From Deltaproteobacteria bacterium (GTDB lineage Bacteria > Desulfobacterota > Binatia > UTPRO1), in NCBI GenBank assembly GCA_020848745.1, contig JADLHM010000098.1:124001-188000 (forward strand): 64,000 nt of DNA. The letters are read 5' to 3'. How positions within the stretch are numbered: the stretch's first letter is position 1; each line of letters begins with the position of its first letter. The notes under the pieces were generated by a model that was given only the letters and a program-made list of their open reading frames with translations, searched no databases and was not told the origin of the DNA. A program made the translations under genes and the position numbers. Of this stretch, positions 8,058 to 64,000 are shown one piece after another.

Positions 8058-10706
8058 ATGGGGCGCTCCTGGTCCAGCAACGGTCGTCGGTTTGCGCGCG
8101 CATGCTCGCTGCTCGTCCTGTCGGCGCTGCTCGGCGGCGCGGCCGCACCGTGCGGGCTCGTCCGCACGGCCGAGGCGGCGCCCGCGCTTTCCGCCATCCA
8201 CCCGACCCTCGTCGATCCCCAGGGCGGCACGCGCCTCCTCGTGCGCGGCAGCGGCCTCACCGGCGTGACCGAACTCACAGTCGGCGGCGCTCCGGCGGGC
8301 GACCTGGTCGTGCTCGACGACGGTACGCTGTCGGCGCGATCCGGACCGGTCGCTCCCGGCCAGGGACTCGACGTCGTCTTCACGCGCGGCGCGGAGCAGG
8401 CGACCCTGCGCGCGGCGGTGGAGGCATGGAGCCCTGCCCAGCTTCCCGGCGCACGCGTGTTCGACGCGGCGAGCGGCGTGCAGGGCAGCACGCCCTCCAG
8501 CAGCTACGAGTGGCAGCGCCTGACCACCGAGATCGCGCCGGACTGGCGCGCGCGCGACGGCAACACACTCGCCTACCTTCCGGCGACCGGCCGGTTCTGG
8601 ATGATCGGCGGATGGAACCCATATCCCGTCCCCGACGGCTTCGACGGCGTCGACCCGGCGTCCGGTCTGGCGCCGCGTCCCACGACGAACGAGGTCTGGT
8701 CGACCGCCGACGGCGTGCGCTGGCGCGAGGAGCTGCCCGACGGGCACCCGCTCTTCGACCGCCGCCACGCGCACGCGACCCTCGTCTGGCGCGACAAGCT
8801 CTGGATCGTCGGCGGAGACTTCTGGCTCGAACGCTACAACCACGACGTCGTCTCGAGCACGGACGGCGTGAACTGGACCGTCGAGGTCGCCGAGACGCCG
8901 TGGGCGGACCGCGCGCTCCTCGTCGCCGGCGTGTACGACGACAAGCTGTGGGTGGTGGGCGGCCAGACGCTCGACGGACCGCGCGAGGACTTCGTCTACC
9001 ACAACGACGTCTGGCGCAGCGACGACGGCGTCCACTGGGTGCAGGTCGCCGCCGACGCACCGCCGAGCGCGACCCGCTGGTCGGGGCGCGGCATCTTCAA
9101 CGACCTGGTCGAGTTCGCCGGCCGCATGTGGCTGATCGGCGGCGGCCGCTACCGCGACGACGCGGTGGGTTCGTCCTACCTGCCCGAGGTCTGGTCCTCG
9201 AGCGACGGCGTCGCCTGGCAGCAGCACGCAGCGCCGCCCTGGCGCGGGCGCATCTGGCACGACGTGCGGGTATTCGACGGCAAGCTCTGGGTGCTGTCGG
9301 GCGGCGATGAATTCGGCAATCTCAACGAGACCTGGTTCTCCGAGGACGGCGAGACCTGGACCGCCTTCGCGCCCGAGCGCAACATCCATCCCCAGTCGCA
9401 CGCACAGGGCGTCGCGATCGGCGGCGACTTCCTGCTCTACGCGGGCGGCAACTACTCCTTCGGCGTCGGGCCGACGATCCGCGACGCGGACCGATCGGCG
9501 TGGCGGATGCGGGCGTTTCGCGGCGTCGCCGTCGACTCCTGGACCGACCGCGGCGCCGGCGCCGTCGTCGTGTCGGCGACCGGAGACGCGCGGCCGGTGC
9601 TCGATCCGGACGCGCTCGGCCCTGGTATCCCGGGAATCCAGTTCGACGGCTGGGCGTCGGTGCTCGAGCTCGCGACTCCCGAGTTGCAGCCCGGCGGGCG
9701 CTCCGTGTTCTGGGTCGGGCGCGCCCCGTGGATGCCGACGCCGCCCGACTGGCAAACGCCGCCCGTCCTGAATCCGCTGTGGACCGTCGTCGGGGACGGG
9801 GACGCGCAGTACTGCGCCGCCGGGCTCACCGACGGACGCCTGCACTACACGAGCTCTGCCGCCCCAGTCGGCTGGGACTTCGCCACTTTCGGGTCCGGGT
9901 TGCAGCAGCATCAGGGCGAGGTGCGATTCGCCGGCTTCACGCATTCGACCGACGGACGCGTCCAGGGCTGGGTCGACGGAGTCGCGGTGGGCAGCCCGGT
10001 CGACGTGGGCTACACGCCGTTCCACGGTTGGAGCCGCATCGGCGCGGGCGGCTATGCGGGCGTCGCGAACACGGGGTACGCAGGAACCCTCGGTGCGGTG
10101 ATCATCCTGCCGGTGGCGGTCGACGTCACGACGGTCGATCGCATGCACCGCTGGGCGCAGGGCCGCTTCGCCACGCCGCCCTGCCCGTCGGCCGCACGGC
10201 GCGATCTCGCGCTGAGCGGCCCGCGCGGCGCTGCCGGCGAGCGGCGGATCAAGCTCCGGGGCACGGTCGCCGTCACCGCACAGCCGGCCGCTCCGCTCGA
10301 CCCGAGCCAGGACGGGCTGCGCATCGAGATTCACGACGGCGACGGCAATGCCGTGCTCGACGCGATCTTGCCCCCGGGCCTCTACGACCGTGCGACGCGC
10401 GCCGGGTGGAAGGCGAACCGCGCGCGCACGAGCTTCACGTTCGTCGATCCGTTCGGCGTCGCCGGCGTGACCAGCGCGCGCGTCAAGACGGGCCAGCCGA
10501 CGTACGGACGCCGTGAGGTCGATCTTCGGATGAGCGGTCGGAGCGCCGTCGCGGTCGGCGCGTCGGCCCTGCCCCTCGCCGCGCGGCTCGCGCTCGGACC
10601 GGTCGGCGACGGCGGGTTCTGCGCCGACCTGCGATTCCCGGGGCCGGCGCCGGAGTCCCCCGCGTGCGCCGCCGCGCGTGGCGGCGGGGCGATCACCTGT
10701 CATTAG
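8058..10706 (+). CDS. Large secreted kelch-repeat protein with N-terminal IPT/TIG domain
   Basis: Starting at ATG 8058, the product is 882 residues with a signal peptide ending near AEAAPALS. An IPT/TIG domain follows (IHPTLVDPQGGTRLLVRGSG, VTELTVGG). Then come kelch-like blades with the recurring pattern DKLWIVGG, KLWVVGG, RMWLIGGG, KLWVLSGG, each linked to a VWSS(T/S)DGV type strand, about six copies between residues 170 and 480. A LamG-like stretch and a C-terminal beta-rich segment (IEIHDGDGNAVLDAILPP, ARVKTGQPTYGRREVDLRMSG) resemble endings of other secreted proteins of such genomes. It is likely an extracellular beta-propeller; ligand unknown. The opposite strand is also open over most of the gene, which is a GC-skewed shadow, not a second gene. 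Confidence 0.8.
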   Translation: MGRSWSSNGRRFARACSLLVLSALLGGAAAPCGLVRTAEAAPALSAIHPTLVDPQGGTRLLVRGSGLTGVTELTVGGAPAGDLVVLDDGTLSARSGPVAPGQGLDVVFTRGAEQATLRAAVEAWSPAQLPGARVFDAASGVQGSTPSSSYEWQRLTTEIAPDWRARDGNTLAYLPATGRFWMIGGWNPYPVPDGFDGVDPASGLAPRPTTNEVWSTADGVRWREELPDGHPLFDRRHAHATLVWRDKLWIVGGDFWLERYNHDVVSSTDGVNWTVEVAETPWADRALLVAGVYDDKLWVVGGQTLDGPREDFVYHNDVWRSDDGVHWVQVAADAPPSATRWSGRGIFNDLVEFAGRMWLIGGGRYRDDAVGSSYLPEVWSSSDGVAWQQHAAPPWRGRIWHDVRVFDGKLWVLSGGDEFGNLNETWFSEDGETWTAFAPERNIHPQSHAQGVAIGGDFLLYAGGNYSFGVGPTIRDADRSAWRMRAFRGVAVDSWTDRGAGAVVVSATGDARPVLDPDALGPGIPGIQFDGWASVLELATPELQPGGRSVFWVGRAPWMPTPPDWQTPPVLNPLWTVVGDGDAQYCAAGLTDGRLHYTSSAAPVGWDFATFGSGLQQHQGEVRFAGFTHSTDGRVQGWVDGVAVGSPVDVGYTPFHGWSRIGAGGYAGVANTGYAGTLGAVIILPVAVDVTTVDRMHRWAQGRFATPPCPSAARRDLALSGPRGAAGERRIKLRGTVAVTAQPAAPLDPSQDGLRIEIHDGDGNAVLDAILPPGLYDRATRAGWKANRARTSFTFVDPFGVAGVTSARVKTGQPTYGRREVDLRMSGRSAVAVGASALPLAARLALGPVGDGGFCADLRFPGPAPESPACAAARGGGAITCH

Positions 10707-59019: not shown

Positions 59020-59373
59020 TCAGTACGCGACGAGCGCCTCGAGGTCGCCCGTCGCCTCGTTCCGCGCGACCACGAGACGCGACATGCAGGGCATGCAGTA
59101 CACGCGGTCGCCCGGGAGGAGCGTGCGGCTCGAGCGGATCACGACCTTGCAGACGGGGCAGATGACCTCGTTCGGCGCGAGCCGGTCGCCGGCGCCCTTC
59201 CACTTGCGGTAGAAGCGCCGGTACTTCTTCGGGACCTCGTCGAAGCCGCTGTCGTCGAGGACGAAGCGCTGGCGCTCGCCCTTCGGATCGTTGGCGGCGG
59301 GGCTGCCCGCGGCCGGCTCGCCTTCGTCGCCGTCGATCCCGGCGGCGCGGCCGTCTTCGAGGCCGTGGCTCAT
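59020..59373 (-). CDS. Zinc-ribbon protein linked to the ferritin-like operon
   Basis: A 117-residue protein. The first 35 residues are acidic and disordered; then FVLDDSGFDEVPKKYRRFYR and a four-Cys zinc site: CPVC (about residue 71) and CMPC (about residue 93). It overlaps the end of the ferritin-like gene before it by 4 bp (ATGA), so translation is coupled. The role is unknown; such modules can be metallochaperone or electron-transfer helpers, a speculation here. Confidence 0.75.
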   Translation of the reverse strand: MSHGLEDGRAAGIDGDEGEPAAGSPAANDPKGERQRFVLDDSGFDEVPKKYRRFYRKWKGAGDRLAPNEVICPVCKVVIRSSRTLLPGDRVYCMPCMSRLVVARNEATGDLEALVAY

Positions 59374-60137
59374 GATCCGAACCCCAGGCGCTCGACCGAC
59401 TCGAGATAGATCCGGCCGAGGCGCTCGTTCTCGTCGCGCGGCATGCCGAGCGTCCGCACGGTCTCCTCGAGCGACTCGAGTACGAGGTGATCGAGCTCCT
59501 GCTTGATCCGGCCGATGCGGGCGCGGATGTGCGGCGACGCGGCGACGCGCCGCCCGAGCTCGTTCTCGCCGAAGCCCATGTGGCGGCGCTCGTCCTTCAC
59601 GACCCCGCGCAGGATCTCGGCGGTCACCGGGTCGGCCTCGCGCGCGTGGTCCTGGAAGACGGCGAACTCGAGCGACTCGAGGATGACGTTCTGCGCGAAG
59701 ATCGCGGCTTCCCAGTCCTTGCCCGCGACGAGTTCGAGGAGGCGCCGGCGGAACGTCTGGAGGCTCCGGCCGGCGCGCCGGTCGACCTCGGCCTCGGGAT
59801 CGGCGACGCCGAGCTCGCGCATGCGATGGTAGAAGACCTCGAGGTGGCGGCCCTCGTCGGCCACCTGGGTCGCGAGGAACACCTTGGCGAGCCGATTGGG
59901 CGCGATCACGATGAGCCCGCTCGCGCCTTCGAGTGCCGCCGACTCGCCGACGCAGTAGTTGCAGAGGACCGTGATCAGGCGATCACGGTCCTCCGCCGCC
60001 ATGGGCGCATCGACCGTTTCGGGCCGGTGTCCCCAGGTCGTACCGGACAGATAGCCCTCGACCGCCTGGAACCAGAACTCGAAGGAGTGCACCTCCTCGT
60101 AGAAGCTCTGGGGATCGAGGTCGTGGACGTCGCTCAC
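59370..60137 (-). CDS. Ferritin-like diiron protein, second paralogue
   Basis: A 255-residue protein starting at GTG 60137 (GTGA overlap with the gene before). It has the four-helix diiron signature: Glu65 in CVGESAALEG, Glu95-x-x-His98 (ADEGRHLE), Glu154 in NVILESLEF and Glu183-x-x-His186 (KDERRHMGFGE). It is related to the other paralogue over its whole length (for example FAQNVILESLEFAVFQ against VGQNIVLEGMAFSVFE). R2-type and oxygenase diiron proteins share this pattern; no known enzyme subfamily is recognised. Confidence 0.82.
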   Translation of the reverse strand: MSDVHDLDPQSFYEEVHSFEFWFQAVEGYLSGTTWGHRPETVDAPMAAEDRDRLITVLCNYCVGESAALEGASGLIVIAPNRLAKVFLATQVADEGRHLEVFYHRMRELGVADPEAEVDRRAGRSLQTFRRRLLELVAGKDWEAAIFAQNVILESLEFAVFQDHAREADPVTAEILRGVVKDERRHMGFGENELGRRVAASPHIRARIGRIKQELDHLVLESLEETVRTLGMPRDENERLGRIYLESVERLGFGS

Positions 60138-61006
60138 GGGTGCGCGGGCGTCTGGTACTCGAGGCCGATGCGGCCGAGGCGGGTCTTGAACTCCTTCAGG
60201 ACCGTGGCCGCCAGGAGATCCTCCATCTCCTCGGGTGTCATCGCGCCGAGGTCGGCGCCCTGGAAGCGCGCGTGGCTGCGCTCCTGACCGATGCGCTCGA
60301 GCTCCGCGACGGCCTGCGTGTTGCGGAAGGCGTCGGCGAACGTCGCGAGCATGAAGTACGACATGTCCTTCTGCATCTTCTCGATGTCCGGGCGGCGTTC
60401 CGGACTATCCTTGATGAGCGAGCCGATGCGGTTCTCGCCGAAGCCCACGTGGCGCCGCTCGTCGGCGATCGTGCCGGAGAGCGTGTGCGCGAACTTCGGG
60501 TTCATCTCCTCGTTCATCGCGTGCATCATCTCGAAGACGCTGAAGGCCATGCCCTCGAGGACGATGTTCTGGCCGACGACGCCGGCGATGAAGTCCTTCT
60601 TGTCGACCTTCTCGAGGAGCACGCCCGCGAACTTCACGAGGTTCGGGTTCGCGTACCGCGTGAGGGTCGACTCGAGGTCGTCTTTGCGGACGCCGAGGTC
60701 GTAGAGGCGCTGCGTGAAGATCTCGACGTGGCGAGCCTCGTCGAGGGTCTGGGTCGCGAGGAAGCGCTTGCTCGCCTCGTCGGGCGCGCTGTTGATGAGG
60801 CCCGAGGAGGCGGCGAGCGCGCAGCGCTCACCCACGACCAGCTGCACCGTCGTGCGGATGGCGTCCTCGTGCAGGACCGGGTTGCTCTTGAGCAACTCGA
60901 TTTCCTGTTCGCCCGGTTTGTGACCGTAGACGGTTCCTTCGAGGTAGCCCTGCGGGCAGGACTCGAGCCAGTTCTGGATCGAATACGCGGAAAGGAAATC
61001 AGCCAT
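60134..61006 (-). CDS. Ferritin-like diiron protein, first paralogue
   Basis: A 290-residue protein from ATG 61006. Likely diiron ligands: Glu60 (VVGERCALA), Glu90-x-x-His93 (TLDEARHVEIF), Glu151 (NIVLEGMAFS), Glu183-x-x-His186 (IADERRHVGFGE), a complete set. The pattern is that of ferritin-like / R2-like oxidases rather than ferritin storage proteins. The motif YLEGTVYGHKPGEQE also occurs as YLSGTTWGHRPETVD in the paralogue. It is the first gene of a three-gene operon whose members overlap by 4 bp each. An upstream frame extends past 61.2 kb but has no ribosome site; ATG 61006 has AAAGGAAAT upstream. Confidence 0.82.
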   Translation of the reverse strand: MADFLSAYSIQNWLESCPQGYLEGTVYGHKPGEQEIELLKSNPVLHEDAIRTTVQLVVGERCALAASSGLINSAPDEASKRFLATQTLDEARHVEIFTQRLYDLGVRKDDLESTLTRYANPNLVKFAGVLLEKVDKKDFIAGVVGQNIVLEGMAFSVFEMMHAMNEEMNPKFAHTLSGTIADERRHVGFGENRIGSLIKDSPERRPDIEKMQKDMSYFMLATFADAFRNTQAVAELERIGQERSHARFQGADLGAMTPEEMEDLLAATVLKEFKTRLGRIGLEYQTPAHP

Positions 61007-61158
61007 GGATCGCTCCTTGTTCAACGGCGGGGATTCGCCCGCTCGGAGAGGAGCAAGGCGCGTGCCCGGAACGCCCGCCCGCGCGCGGCCGGAGCCGAGG
61101 CGCTTTCCCATCGTCGGCGAGCGCCCCAGTCTCTCGCCCCGGAATCCGGGCGCGGGCC

Positions 61159-61257: not shown

Positions 61258-62976
61258 ATGCAGTGCGGTGGACCGCCGATGATGCCCGTCCTTTCCGCGC
61301 CGCCGGCGCCGGTCGCCTGGCGGCGCGAGCCGTTCCGTCTCTTCTTCCCGGTCGCCGTCGTTCTCGGCGCGATCGGCGTCGGGCACTGGCTCTTCTACGC
61401 GACCGGTATCACCACGACCTACTCCGGCTTCCTTCACGGCCAGGTCATGACCCAGGCCTTCATGATGGCGCTCGCCGTCGGTTTCCTGATGACGGCGGTG
61501 CCGCGGCGGACGCAGTCGGCGCCCCCCGCGGCGTTGGAGATGGCCTGCGCGCTCGCCGCGCTCGTCATCGTGACGGCGGCGGCGCTCGCGGGCCGCTGGG
61601 CGCTGGCCCAGCTCGCCTACGCGGCGCTCTTCCTCGTGCTGCTGCAGTTCGCGGTGCGCCGCTTCCTCGGTCACGGCGCGGCCCGCCGGCCACCGGCGTC
61701 GTTCGTGCTCGTGCCGATCGCGGTCGCGCACGGGCTCGCGGGCGCGCTGCTCATCGCGCTCGCGACGCGTCCGGGAACCTCGCCCGTGGTGCTCGCGCTC
61801 GGACGCCTCTTCGTCGAGCAGGGCGTCTTCCTCTGCCTCGCGGTCGGGGTCGGGAGTCTGGTGCTGCCGCTGATGGCCGGTGAGCCGCCGCCGGCGGATC
61901 TCGGGAGCTCGCCGCGCGAGCGCGCGAAGCTCGCGGCCTACGCGCTCCTCGGCGCCGCGCTCTGCGCCTCGATGGTGGTGGAAGCGGCCGGCTGGGTGCG
62001 GCTCGGTCCGCTCTGCCGCGCCGCCGTCGTCGTCGGCGGCCTCGTGCTCGGCGGCGGCGCCGCGCGTCTCCCGAAGAAGCCTGGCCTGCACCGCCGCCTC
62101 GTCTGGCTCGCGGTGTGGCTCATGCCGGTCGGCCTCGTCGGTGCGGCGCTCGCGCCCGACCTCCGCATTGCGATGCTGCACGTGCTGTTCATCGGCGGCT
62201 TCTCGCTCATGGGATTCGGGGTCGCGACCCACGTCTCGCTGAACCACCTCGACCTCGAGCGCCTAGCGCTCGGCCGGCCGCCGGCGGTCGTGGCGCTCGG
62301 CCTCTGCATGGTGCTCGCGATGCTCGCGCGCGTCGGCGCCGACTTCTCGGAAGGCTACTTCGATCACCTGGCGTGGGCCGCCGCGCTCTGGATCGTCGGC
62401 GCGGGCGCCTGGCTCGCCTTCCTCGGACCGCGGCTCCTCGGCCGCGCGCCGCGCGCGGCGCCGATGCCGGCCCACGCGCTCGGTCCGGTCGCGGCGTATC
62501 TGGTCGCCGACCACGAGCGGCTCGACGCGCTGCTCGCCCGCACGGTCCGGCATCCGGACGCGCTGGACCCGGTCGCGTACGATCGCTTCCGGCGCGGGCT
62601 CCTCCGTCACATCGGCATGGAGGAGAAGATCCTCCTGCCGGCGGCGCAGCGCCGGCGCGGCGGGGAGCCGCTTCCCGAGGCCGCGCGGCTGCGGAGCGAC
62701 CACGGGGCGCTCGCCGCGCTCCTCGTGCCGCGTCCGACGCCCGCGATCATCGCGGCGATCCGCCACGTCATCGCCGCCCACAACGTGCTCGAGGAAGAGC
62801 CGCGCGGCGTCTACGCGGTGTGCGAGGCGCTCGTCGGCGATGCGGGCGAGGCGCTCGCCGCCGCGCTCCGCGACGCGCCCGAGGTGCCGGTGCACGCTCC
62901 GGTCGACGACGTGCGCGTGCTCGACGCCACGCGGCGCGCGCTCGCGCGCGCCGGATACGACCCGGCGCTCGTATGA
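61258..62976 (+). CDS. NnrS-family membrane protein fused to a C-terminal hemerythrin domain
   Basis: A 572-residue protein. Residues 1-405 form about twelve membrane helices of the NnrS family, with WRREPFRLFFPVAVVLGAIG and HGQVMTQAFMMALAVGFLMT near the start and GGFSLMGFGVATHVSL in the middle. NnrS is a haem-copper membrane protein linked to nitric oxide tolerance. Residues 415-572 are a hemerythrin-like domain: VADHERLDALL (His), HIGMEEKILLPAAQ (His, Glu), RSDHGALAALL (His), HVIAAHNVLEEEP (His, Glu). A fusion of the two is unusual. Translation starts at 61258 or ATG 61279. Confidence 0.88.
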   Translation: MQCGGPPMMPVLSAPPAPVAWRREPFRLFFPVAVVLGAIGVGHWLFYATGITTTYSGFLHGQVMTQAFMMALAVGFLMTAVPRRTQSAPPAALEMACALAALVIVTAAALAGRWALAQLAYAALFLVLLQFAVRRFLGHGAARRPPASFVLVPIAVAHGLAGALLIALATRPGTSPVVLALGRLFVEQGVFLCLAVGVGSLVLPLMAGEPPPADLGSSPRERAKLAAYALLGAALCASMVVEAAGWVRLGPLCRAAVVVGGLVLGGGAARLPKKPGLHRRLVWLAVWLMPVGLVGAALAPDLRIAMLHVLFIGGFSLMGFGVATHVSLNHLDLERLALGRPPAVVALGLCMVLAMLARVGADFSEGYFDHLAWAAALWIVGAGAWLAFLGPRLLGRAPRAAPMPAHALGPVAAYLVADHERLDALLARTVRHPDALDPVAYDRFRRGLLRHIGMEEKILLPAAQRRRGGEPLPEAARLRSDHGALAALLVPRPTPAIIAAIRHVIAAHNVLEEEPRGVYAVCEALVGDAGEALAAALRDAPEVPVHAPVDDVRVLDATRRALARAGYDPALV

Positions 62977-63014: not shown

Positions 63015-63680
63015 TCAGTCCTCGCCCGCGGCGAGTTCGCGCAACATGCCGACGTCGGCGAGGGCGAGGGCGTGCCGCGCCGAGCGTACGACGCCGGCCT
63101 TGTGCCACTTGCTGGTGATGCGGATCGCCGTCTCGACGGTCGTGCCGACCATGTCGGCGAGCTCCTGGCGCGTGACCGGGAGCACCGTCACGCCGTCTTC
63201 CGTGTGGCCGATCTTCGTCGTGAGCGCGAGGAGCACGCGCGCGAGCCGCTGCTCGACGGGCTCGAGCGCGACCGACTGCAGGCGCTCGTGGGCGCTGCGG
63301 AGCCGTGTCGTCGCGAGCGCCAGGATCGCCGAGCGCAGCGTCGGGTGGCGCTGGCAGATCTCGCGGACGAGCTTCGCGGGTACGCGCCAGGCCGTGCTCG
63401 GCTCGACGGCGATCGCCGAGGCGGGGTAGGGGCGATCCTCGAGCGCGACGACGGCGCCGAAGAACTCGCCCGGCGGGATCACCTCGAGCACGATCTCGCG
63501 GCCGCTCGGCCCGGCCTTCACGATGTGGACGAGCCCCTCGCGCACGGCCCACACGTGGGTCGACGGCTGGTCCTGGGAGAAGGCGATCGCGCCCTTCGGG
63601 AGCGCGACCTCGCGCGCCGCGGCCTTCACGAGCGCCCGCTCGCTCGGCGGCAGGGTCCGGAAGCCGGGGAGCTCCTCCAT
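63015..63680 (-). CDS. Crp/Fnr-family transcriptional regulator
   Basis: A 221-residue regulator with the cyclic-nucleotide-binding-type beta roll (LVHIVKAGPSGREIVLEVIP, GEFFGAVVALEDRPYPASA), the long dimer helix (LRSAHERLQSVALEPVEQRL) and a winged helix with recognition motif TRQELADMVGTTVETAIRIT. There is no N-terminal cysteine cluster, so it is not an iron-sulfur FNR; a haem or NO-sensing Dnr-type role is possible given the neighbours. Divergent from the hemerythrin gene with a palindromic site in between. Confidence 0.92.
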   Translation of the reverse strand: MEELPGFRTLPPSERALVKAAAREVALPKGAIAFSQDQPSTHVWAVREGLVHIVKAGPSGREIVLEVIPPGEFFGAVVALEDRPYPASAIAVEPSTAWRVPAKLVREICQRHPTLRSAILALATTRLRSAHERLQSVALEPVEQRLARVLLALTTKIGHTEDGVTVLPVTRQELADMVGTTVETAIRITSKWHKAGVVRSARHALALADVGMLRELAAGED

Positions 63681-63699
63681 CCGGCCCGTTCTCTAACCT

Positions 63700-63719
63700 G
63701 TATGAGGCGAGTCATACAA
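63700..63719. promoter_or_regulatory. Crp-geometry palindrome TGTATGA-N6-TCATACA
   Basis: Perfect 7-bp arms with a 6-bp spacer, the same half-site spacing as the CRP consensus. It lies 20 bp from the regulator start and 31 bp from the hemerythrin start, i.e. a likely shared operator for autoregulation and control of the neighbour. Confidence 0.7.
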
Positions 63720-63749: not shown

Positions 63750-64000
63750 ATGGAAGAGACCATCGCTTTGTTGTTGCGGCAGCACGACGAGCTGCTCGCG
63801 TGCCTCGACGCGACCGCGCGGGAGCTCGCGGCCCTCACGGCGCCGCTCGCCCGGTTCGTGACCCGTCTCGAGGCCGAGCTCGACGGGCATTTCACGGTCG
63901 AGGAGCAGACGCTGTTTCCGAAGCTCGCCGCGTCCGCGGACGTGACGCCGGGGACGATCGCGCTCGTCCTCGACGAGCACGCCGCTGTCCGTGCCCGCAC
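63750..64000 (+). CDS. Stand-alone hemerythrin-domain protein, 3' end outside the window
   Basis: The frame from ATG 63750 is open to the window end (83 codons seen). It begins METTI-like with LLLRQHDELLACLDATAREL (His), then DGHFTVEEQTLFPKL (His, Glu) and LDEHAAVRAR (His), the ligand order of hemerythrin domains. It is related to the hemerythrin half of the NnrS fusion. Divergent from the Crp/Fnr gene. The rest of the protein lies beyond the window. Confidence 0.8.
   Translation, partial: MEETIALLLRQHDELLACLDATARELAALTAPLARFVTRLEAELDGHFTVEEQTLFPKLAASADVTPGTIALVLDEHAAVRAR

Follow-up and report, generated by a model that had tools for sequence, protein, structure and literature searches.

The window, a 64,000-nucleotide stretch of a genome (G000; 155 contigs, 99.5% complete, 4.88 Mb), carries a gene that joins an NnrS-type membrane domain to an HHE (hemerythrin-like) domain in one reading frame (Table 1). 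Its start codon is either the ATG at 61258 or an alternative ATG at 61279, both of which are kept in all three genomes carrying the fusion. A Crp/Fnr-family regulator gene, a candidate operator and a second HHE gene, which runs off the end of the window, follow. The genes past the window end were called by a simple coding-score script on an extended locus (L107), in which the window position equals the L107 position + 55999.

Table 1. Features of the fused gene and its surroundings (window coordinates unless otherwise stated)
Feature	Position	Strand	Description or basis
Fused gene, NnrS-type membrane domain and HHE domain	61258..62976	+	572 aa, uninterrupted frame; Pfam; two same-genus genomes
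NnrS domain, divergent subfamily, residues 21-395	61318..62442	+	PF05940; 29-sequence alignment; hydropathy
Variable linker, residues 396-411	62443..62490	+	NnrS relatives stop at about residue 397; dN/dS
HHE (hemerythrin-like) domain, residues ~412-530	62491..62847	+	PF01814; six ligands in relatives
C-terminal tail of the HHE subfamily, residues 531-572	62848..62973	+	Kept in stand-alone relatives
Crp/Fnr-family regulator gene	63015..63680	-	PF00027 and PF13545
Palindrome TGTATGA-N6-TCATACA, candidate operator	63699..63718		In the gap separating the Crp/Fnr gene from the second HHE gene
Second HHE gene, incomplete in the window	63750..64000	+	131 aa in full (L107 7751-8143); PF01814, 63.1 bits
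Other palindrome site in the genome	G000:C25:131624-131643 (L194)		Just upstream of a second nirK

The fusion is real. It was found end to end in two other genomes from the genus, each assembled independently, SJ588 (89% identity) and UTPRO1 (76% identity), and the original prediction of an NnrS protein fused to a hemerythrin stands on the open frame, both Pfam domains and the agreement of these genomes. Because the full-length fusion recurs in both, an assembly error masking a stop codon between the parts, the refutation named in that prediction, is excluded. Pairwise comparison of the three fusion genomes gave dN/dS values of 0.19-0.30 (NnrS half) and 0.22-0.40 (HHE half), indicating that both halves are under purifying selection across three species; the linker, which offers few sites, had the highest value of the four segments in two of the three pairs. 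A shadow open reading frame in high-GC DNA was ruled out by homology and by dN/dS.

The membrane half matched PF05940 over residues 21-395 with 108.6 bits (cut-off 28), covering model positions 2-369 of 371. This score of ~110 bits compares with 368 bits for the canonical second NnrS of the same genome. The NnrS matches of the class fell into two main groups, a canonical group of complete matches (~340-376 bits) and the subfamily of the window protein (~90-136 bits), with a few weaker matches; the window genome, SJ588, and UTPRO1 each encode one canonical and one divergent-subfamily NnrS. In a comparison of a 29-sequence alignment of the subfamily with 11 canonical NnrS proteins, three of the five canonical histidines (H60, H308, and H330) were kept, and the other two were absent. 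These observations indicate that the membrane half belongs to a divergent NnrS subfamily and is not a canonical NnrS, so the earlier description of it as a normal NnrS does not hold. Since two canonical histidines are absent, haem or copper binding cannot be assumed for this half, as the original prediction had done in calling it a haem-copper membrane protein, and results obtained on canonical NnrS may not carry over. Averaged hydropathy predicted ~12 helices, and most of the basic residues fall on the side that holds the two termini. From this bias, the C-terminus, and hence the HHE domain, is predicted to lie in the cytoplasm.

In the C-terminal half, PF01814 was matched at residues 413-489; against a cut-off of 25.3, the match scored 23.8 bits when the whole protein was searched and 26.3 bits when the domain was taken alone, and all 34 aligned members of the C-terminal family matched this model at E 0.01 or better. 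The ligand residues H419, H451, E455, H482, H508, and E512 each occur in at least 85 of the 86 relatives. Their order, H / HxxxE / H / HxxxE, gives a complete set of four histidines and two carboxylates. Classical O2-binding hemerythrin uses five His, one Glu, and one Asp, with an HxxxH pair in helix C. The fused domain departs from this ligand set: it has a single conserved His (H482) in helix C and HxxxE in helix D. The ligands of E. coli YtfE are H84, H129, E133, H160, H204, and E208 (PMC9052748); we checked these residues on its sequence and found the same six-ligand order as in the fused domain. The profile comparison of the fused HHE domain with YtfE was weak (hhalign probability 16%; PDB search E 0.05), but the alignment superimposes the HxxxE motifs and pairs H482 with the region of His160. 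The fused protein matched no NCBIfam model at E 0.01, including the RIC equivalog TIGR03652. Membership in RIC was ruled out by the lack of this match and of an ScdA_N domain. The fused HHE domain is thus YtfE-like in the ligand pattern of its site and not a member of RIC. The original prediction had claimed a complete hemerythrin domain with its iron ligands; the six ligands are indeed present, but in the YtfE/RIC-type pattern and not in that of classical hemerythrin.

The HHE tree placed the three fused domains in one clade (support 100/100). The nearest domains by path were stand-alone HHE proteins of Binatia (genomes G105, G135, and G033), with weak support for the deeper forks. We also observed an HHE orthologue fused to a DUF6306 domain (genome G011; L113 7031-7987), and the HHE family thus joins other fusions too.

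The fusion was detected in three of three genus members among 148 genomes of the class surveyed, and the two halves are separate genes or absent in the other 145. UTPRO1 is an order name within the uncultured phylum Binatota (PMC8262859), and the window most likely derives from this group, judging by the name and by kinship. In the NnrS-subfamily relatives retrieved from outside the genus, the chain ends no more than a few residues from position 397, apart from one that runs on for 17 residues. Outside the genus an HHE relative, if there is one, is generally encoded by its own gene. No stand-alone copy of the fused HHE subfamily was found within the genus. The original prediction had proposed a search for the domain order elsewhere; the order occurs in the two same-genus genomes, and a pattern scan of 84,980 species, which catches close relatives only, revealed no fusion outside the genus. 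Likewise, a search of 284 Myxococcota genomes detected no fusion, plasmid records contained no match to the fusion protein, and we found no description of an NnrS-hemerythrin fusion in the literature searched. These searches were aimed at close relatives of the window protein and not at canonical NnrS proteins of other phyla, such as Pseudomonadota; within that scope, the fusion is limited to one genus. The nearest case outside the genus is Minicystis rosea (Myxococcota), in which an NnrS-type gene overlaps an HHE-type gene by 14 bases; the product of the latter has three segments that match the HHE model.

The second hemerythrin gene, which the original prediction had placed behind the Crp/Fnr gene, was confirmed there (Table 1). 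It is followed in the same direction by norC, norB, norQ, norD, nirK, and a nirV-like gene, a series starting 157 bases beyond the window end. The families of norB and nirK were confirmed: the best solved relatives of NorB are the cNOR subunits 4xyd and 3o0r, and NirK passes TIGR02376. The domains found in the products of norC (two of the cytochrome c type) and nirV (an FGE-sulfatase domain) fit these names, and norQ and norD were named from position and appearance. The two cytochrome c domains of the island NorC (L107 8158-8868) are accompanied by a C-terminal cytochrome c domain in NirK (L107 13027-14523). SJ588 has the same gene order, including the nor and nir genes, minus the second HHE gene. 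In the space before its norC (L031 ~8390-8475), the last codons of the second HHE gene are still readable, with seven residues identical, as if the gene had been deleted. UTPRO1 keeps the second HHE gene and nirK, with no nor genes at this place.

For the palindrome between the regulator gene and the second HHE gene, 0.15 occurrences were expected in the window with 3 mismatches. When up to two mismatches were allowed, the 4.88 Mb genome contained only one other site, just upstream of the second nirK. The palindrome occupies the same place in UTPRO1 with one mismatch, and a weaker form is present in SJ588. As it recurs only before the second nirK, it points to a small denitrification regulon under the Crp/Fnr protein, the presumed ligand of this putative operator. 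A search ahead of the fusion gene revealed no such palindrome or operator, and so its co-regulation with the island is suggested by position only.

Upstream of the fusion gene and divergent from it, window positions 59020-61009 encode three proteins, two of them ferritin-like di-iron proteins and the third small and zinc-ribbon-like. The same di-iron/di-iron/zinc-ribbon trio follows a stand-alone NnrS-type gene in genome G030, and in genome G050 the first di-iron gene is preceded, ~120 bases away, by an NnrS-like gene that is more divergent still.

Outside the genus, relatives of both halves were found near genes of NO metabolism. Of 22 possible pairs of an HHE orthologue and an NO reductase, 5 lie within 12 kb of each other (0.12 expected); the HHE orthologue is also near an NnrS-type gene in 3 of 7 pairs (0.03 expected), and an NnrS-type gene lies near an NO reductase in 2 of 15 pairs (0.08 expected). 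Owing to short contigs, these proximity counts are undercounts, and their P values are rough as related genomes are not independent. By genome, HHE and NO reductase co-occur 17 times (8.1 expected, P 9e-5). Co-occurrence by genome of HHE and the NnrS subfamily was not significant. One Bacteroidota contig (L100) has a qNOR gene on one side of HHE and a NirK-like gene on the other; in four further Bacteroidota contigs, HHE follows a DUF2249-type gene (Pfam-confirmed in one). At most Nitrospira HHE loci, the commonest conserved neighbours include no nor or nir genes; some Nitrospira have an FeS-assembly (DUF59) gene near HHE. In six Nitrospira loci, a membrane protein of ~366 amino acids with no Pfam match is encoded directly after the stand-alone HHE (L073 6610-7707). 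A homologue lies beside the canonical NnrS of the window genome (L141 44-1324, minus strand). This Nitrospira neighbour was rejected as an NnrS, its profile similarity being weak (hhalign probability 27%).

The genes nnrS and dnrN (ytfE) are core members of NO-responsive regulons (PMC1274295). NnrS is reported to leave NO in place and to shield the iron pool from dinitrosyl complexes (PMC9246220). It has also been proposed to signal to Fe-S repair proteins, as cited in PMC5710167. Together with the adjoining norCBQD-nirK-nirV genes, found also in SJ588, with nirK in UTPRO1, with the repeated proximity of stand-alone HHE relatives to NO reductases, and with the complete YtfE ligand order, this background suggests that the fusion product is probably a membrane-anchored NO-management protein of the denitrification island, whose cytoplasm-facing di-iron domain would limit NO damage. 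NirK would produce NO in the periplasm, and NorCB would clear most of it, while part would enter the cytoplasm. At the inner face of the membrane, the di-iron site anchored by the fusion could bind NO or nitrite, or hold or donate iron, in a manner coupled to an NnrS action that limits dinitrosyl-iron complexes. Through the fusion, a single molecule would combine the membrane part with its di-iron partner. Such an arrangement fits the proposed signaling from NnrS to Fe-S repair without proving it. Against the NO role stand the Nitrospira loci, mostly without nor or nir neighbours, the exclusion of the HHE domain from RIC, the loss of two canonical histidines, and the finding of no operator ahead of the fusion gene. 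The shared task assumed in the original prediction is therefore backed, as NO handling, by the nor and nir genes next door and by relatives of both halves clustering with NO reductases, but two of its premises are off, as the membrane part is a divergent NnrS and the ligand pattern is of the YtfE/RIC type; NO capture by the di-iron site beside a haem-copper protein, the example offered there, would be one hypothetical mechanism. It is conceivable, although rather unlikely, that the divergent NnrS and this specific HHE subfamily constitute a dedicated cytoplasmic-face membrane module for NO or nitrite, with the fusion as its single-chain form; one example would be a di-iron NO scavenger or reductase fed via the membrane part.

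HHE domains handle O2 elsewhere. The fused domain might accordingly be a membrane O2 or redox buffer or sensor resembling bacteriohemerythrin, with the denitrification neighbours reflecting microaerobic life and not NO chemistry. Bacteriohemerythrins are discussed for low-oxygen methanotrophs in PMC12607906, and an NnrS-type gene lies near what appears by eye to be a cbb3 oxidase cluster in genome G003. However, helix C supplies one His and helix D an HxxxE motif, a YtfE-type ligand set, and the closeness to NO reductases is repeated; we regard an O2 function as unlikely. YtfE has been reported as an iron donor (PMC8117158). Storage or donation of iron by the HHE domain, with the NnrS part as a metal or haem partner in the assembly of NorB or iron enzymes (or an equivalent supply of copper or haem), would suit the DUF59 genes near HHE in some Nitrospira and the two ferritin-like proteins encoded just upstream of the fusion. 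Yet no metal-transport family was seen, and NorQ and NorD are already in the island. A role in supply seems quite unlikely, and it is compatible with NO management and does not exclude it.

The remaining explanation is a neutral fusion, in which a stop codon was lost between neighbouring genes whose products still work independently. In most relatives each half is a gene of its own, the linker is variable, and the fusion is not the only gene of either kind in the genome, which encodes a canonical NnrS and the second HHE protein besides. Nevertheless, the fusion has been kept in three species with purifying selection on both halves, and the genus yielded no stand-alone copy of the fused HHE subfamily, which leaves a neutral fusion very unlikely.

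The fusion bears on the role of NnrS itself: protection of iron without NO removal has been reported, and the link to Fe-S repair is only proposed in the source cited above. The fusion physically links two kinds of protein known so far mainly for their joint induction, and an NnrS-type domain joined to a YtfE-like di-iron domain within a nir-nor island renders the question of the NnrS partner directly testable.

Compared with known systems, the membrane half resembles NnrS (PF05940) in matching the whole domain, in its comparable length and 12 predicted helices, in keeping three of the five histidines, and in its denitrification setting, whereas it differs from canonical NnrS in its lower score, the loss of two canonical histidines, and the added C-terminal HHE domain. 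The HHE half shares with YtfE/RIC/ScdA/DnrN the six-ligand order and an NO-related neighbourhood. Unlike these proteins, it is without ScdA_N and its cysteine pair, is shorter, appears tethered to the membrane, and has no RIC match. NnrS and hemerythrin genes are also adjacent on a Fuscovulum plasmid, together with NnrU and a cyclic-nucleotide-binding (Crp-type) gene, the NnrS there having been found by a canonical NnrS query. Both there and in Minicystis rosea, which likewise encodes the two kinds of protein side by side, NnrS and hemerythrin are separate proteins, in contrast to the single chain encoded in the window.
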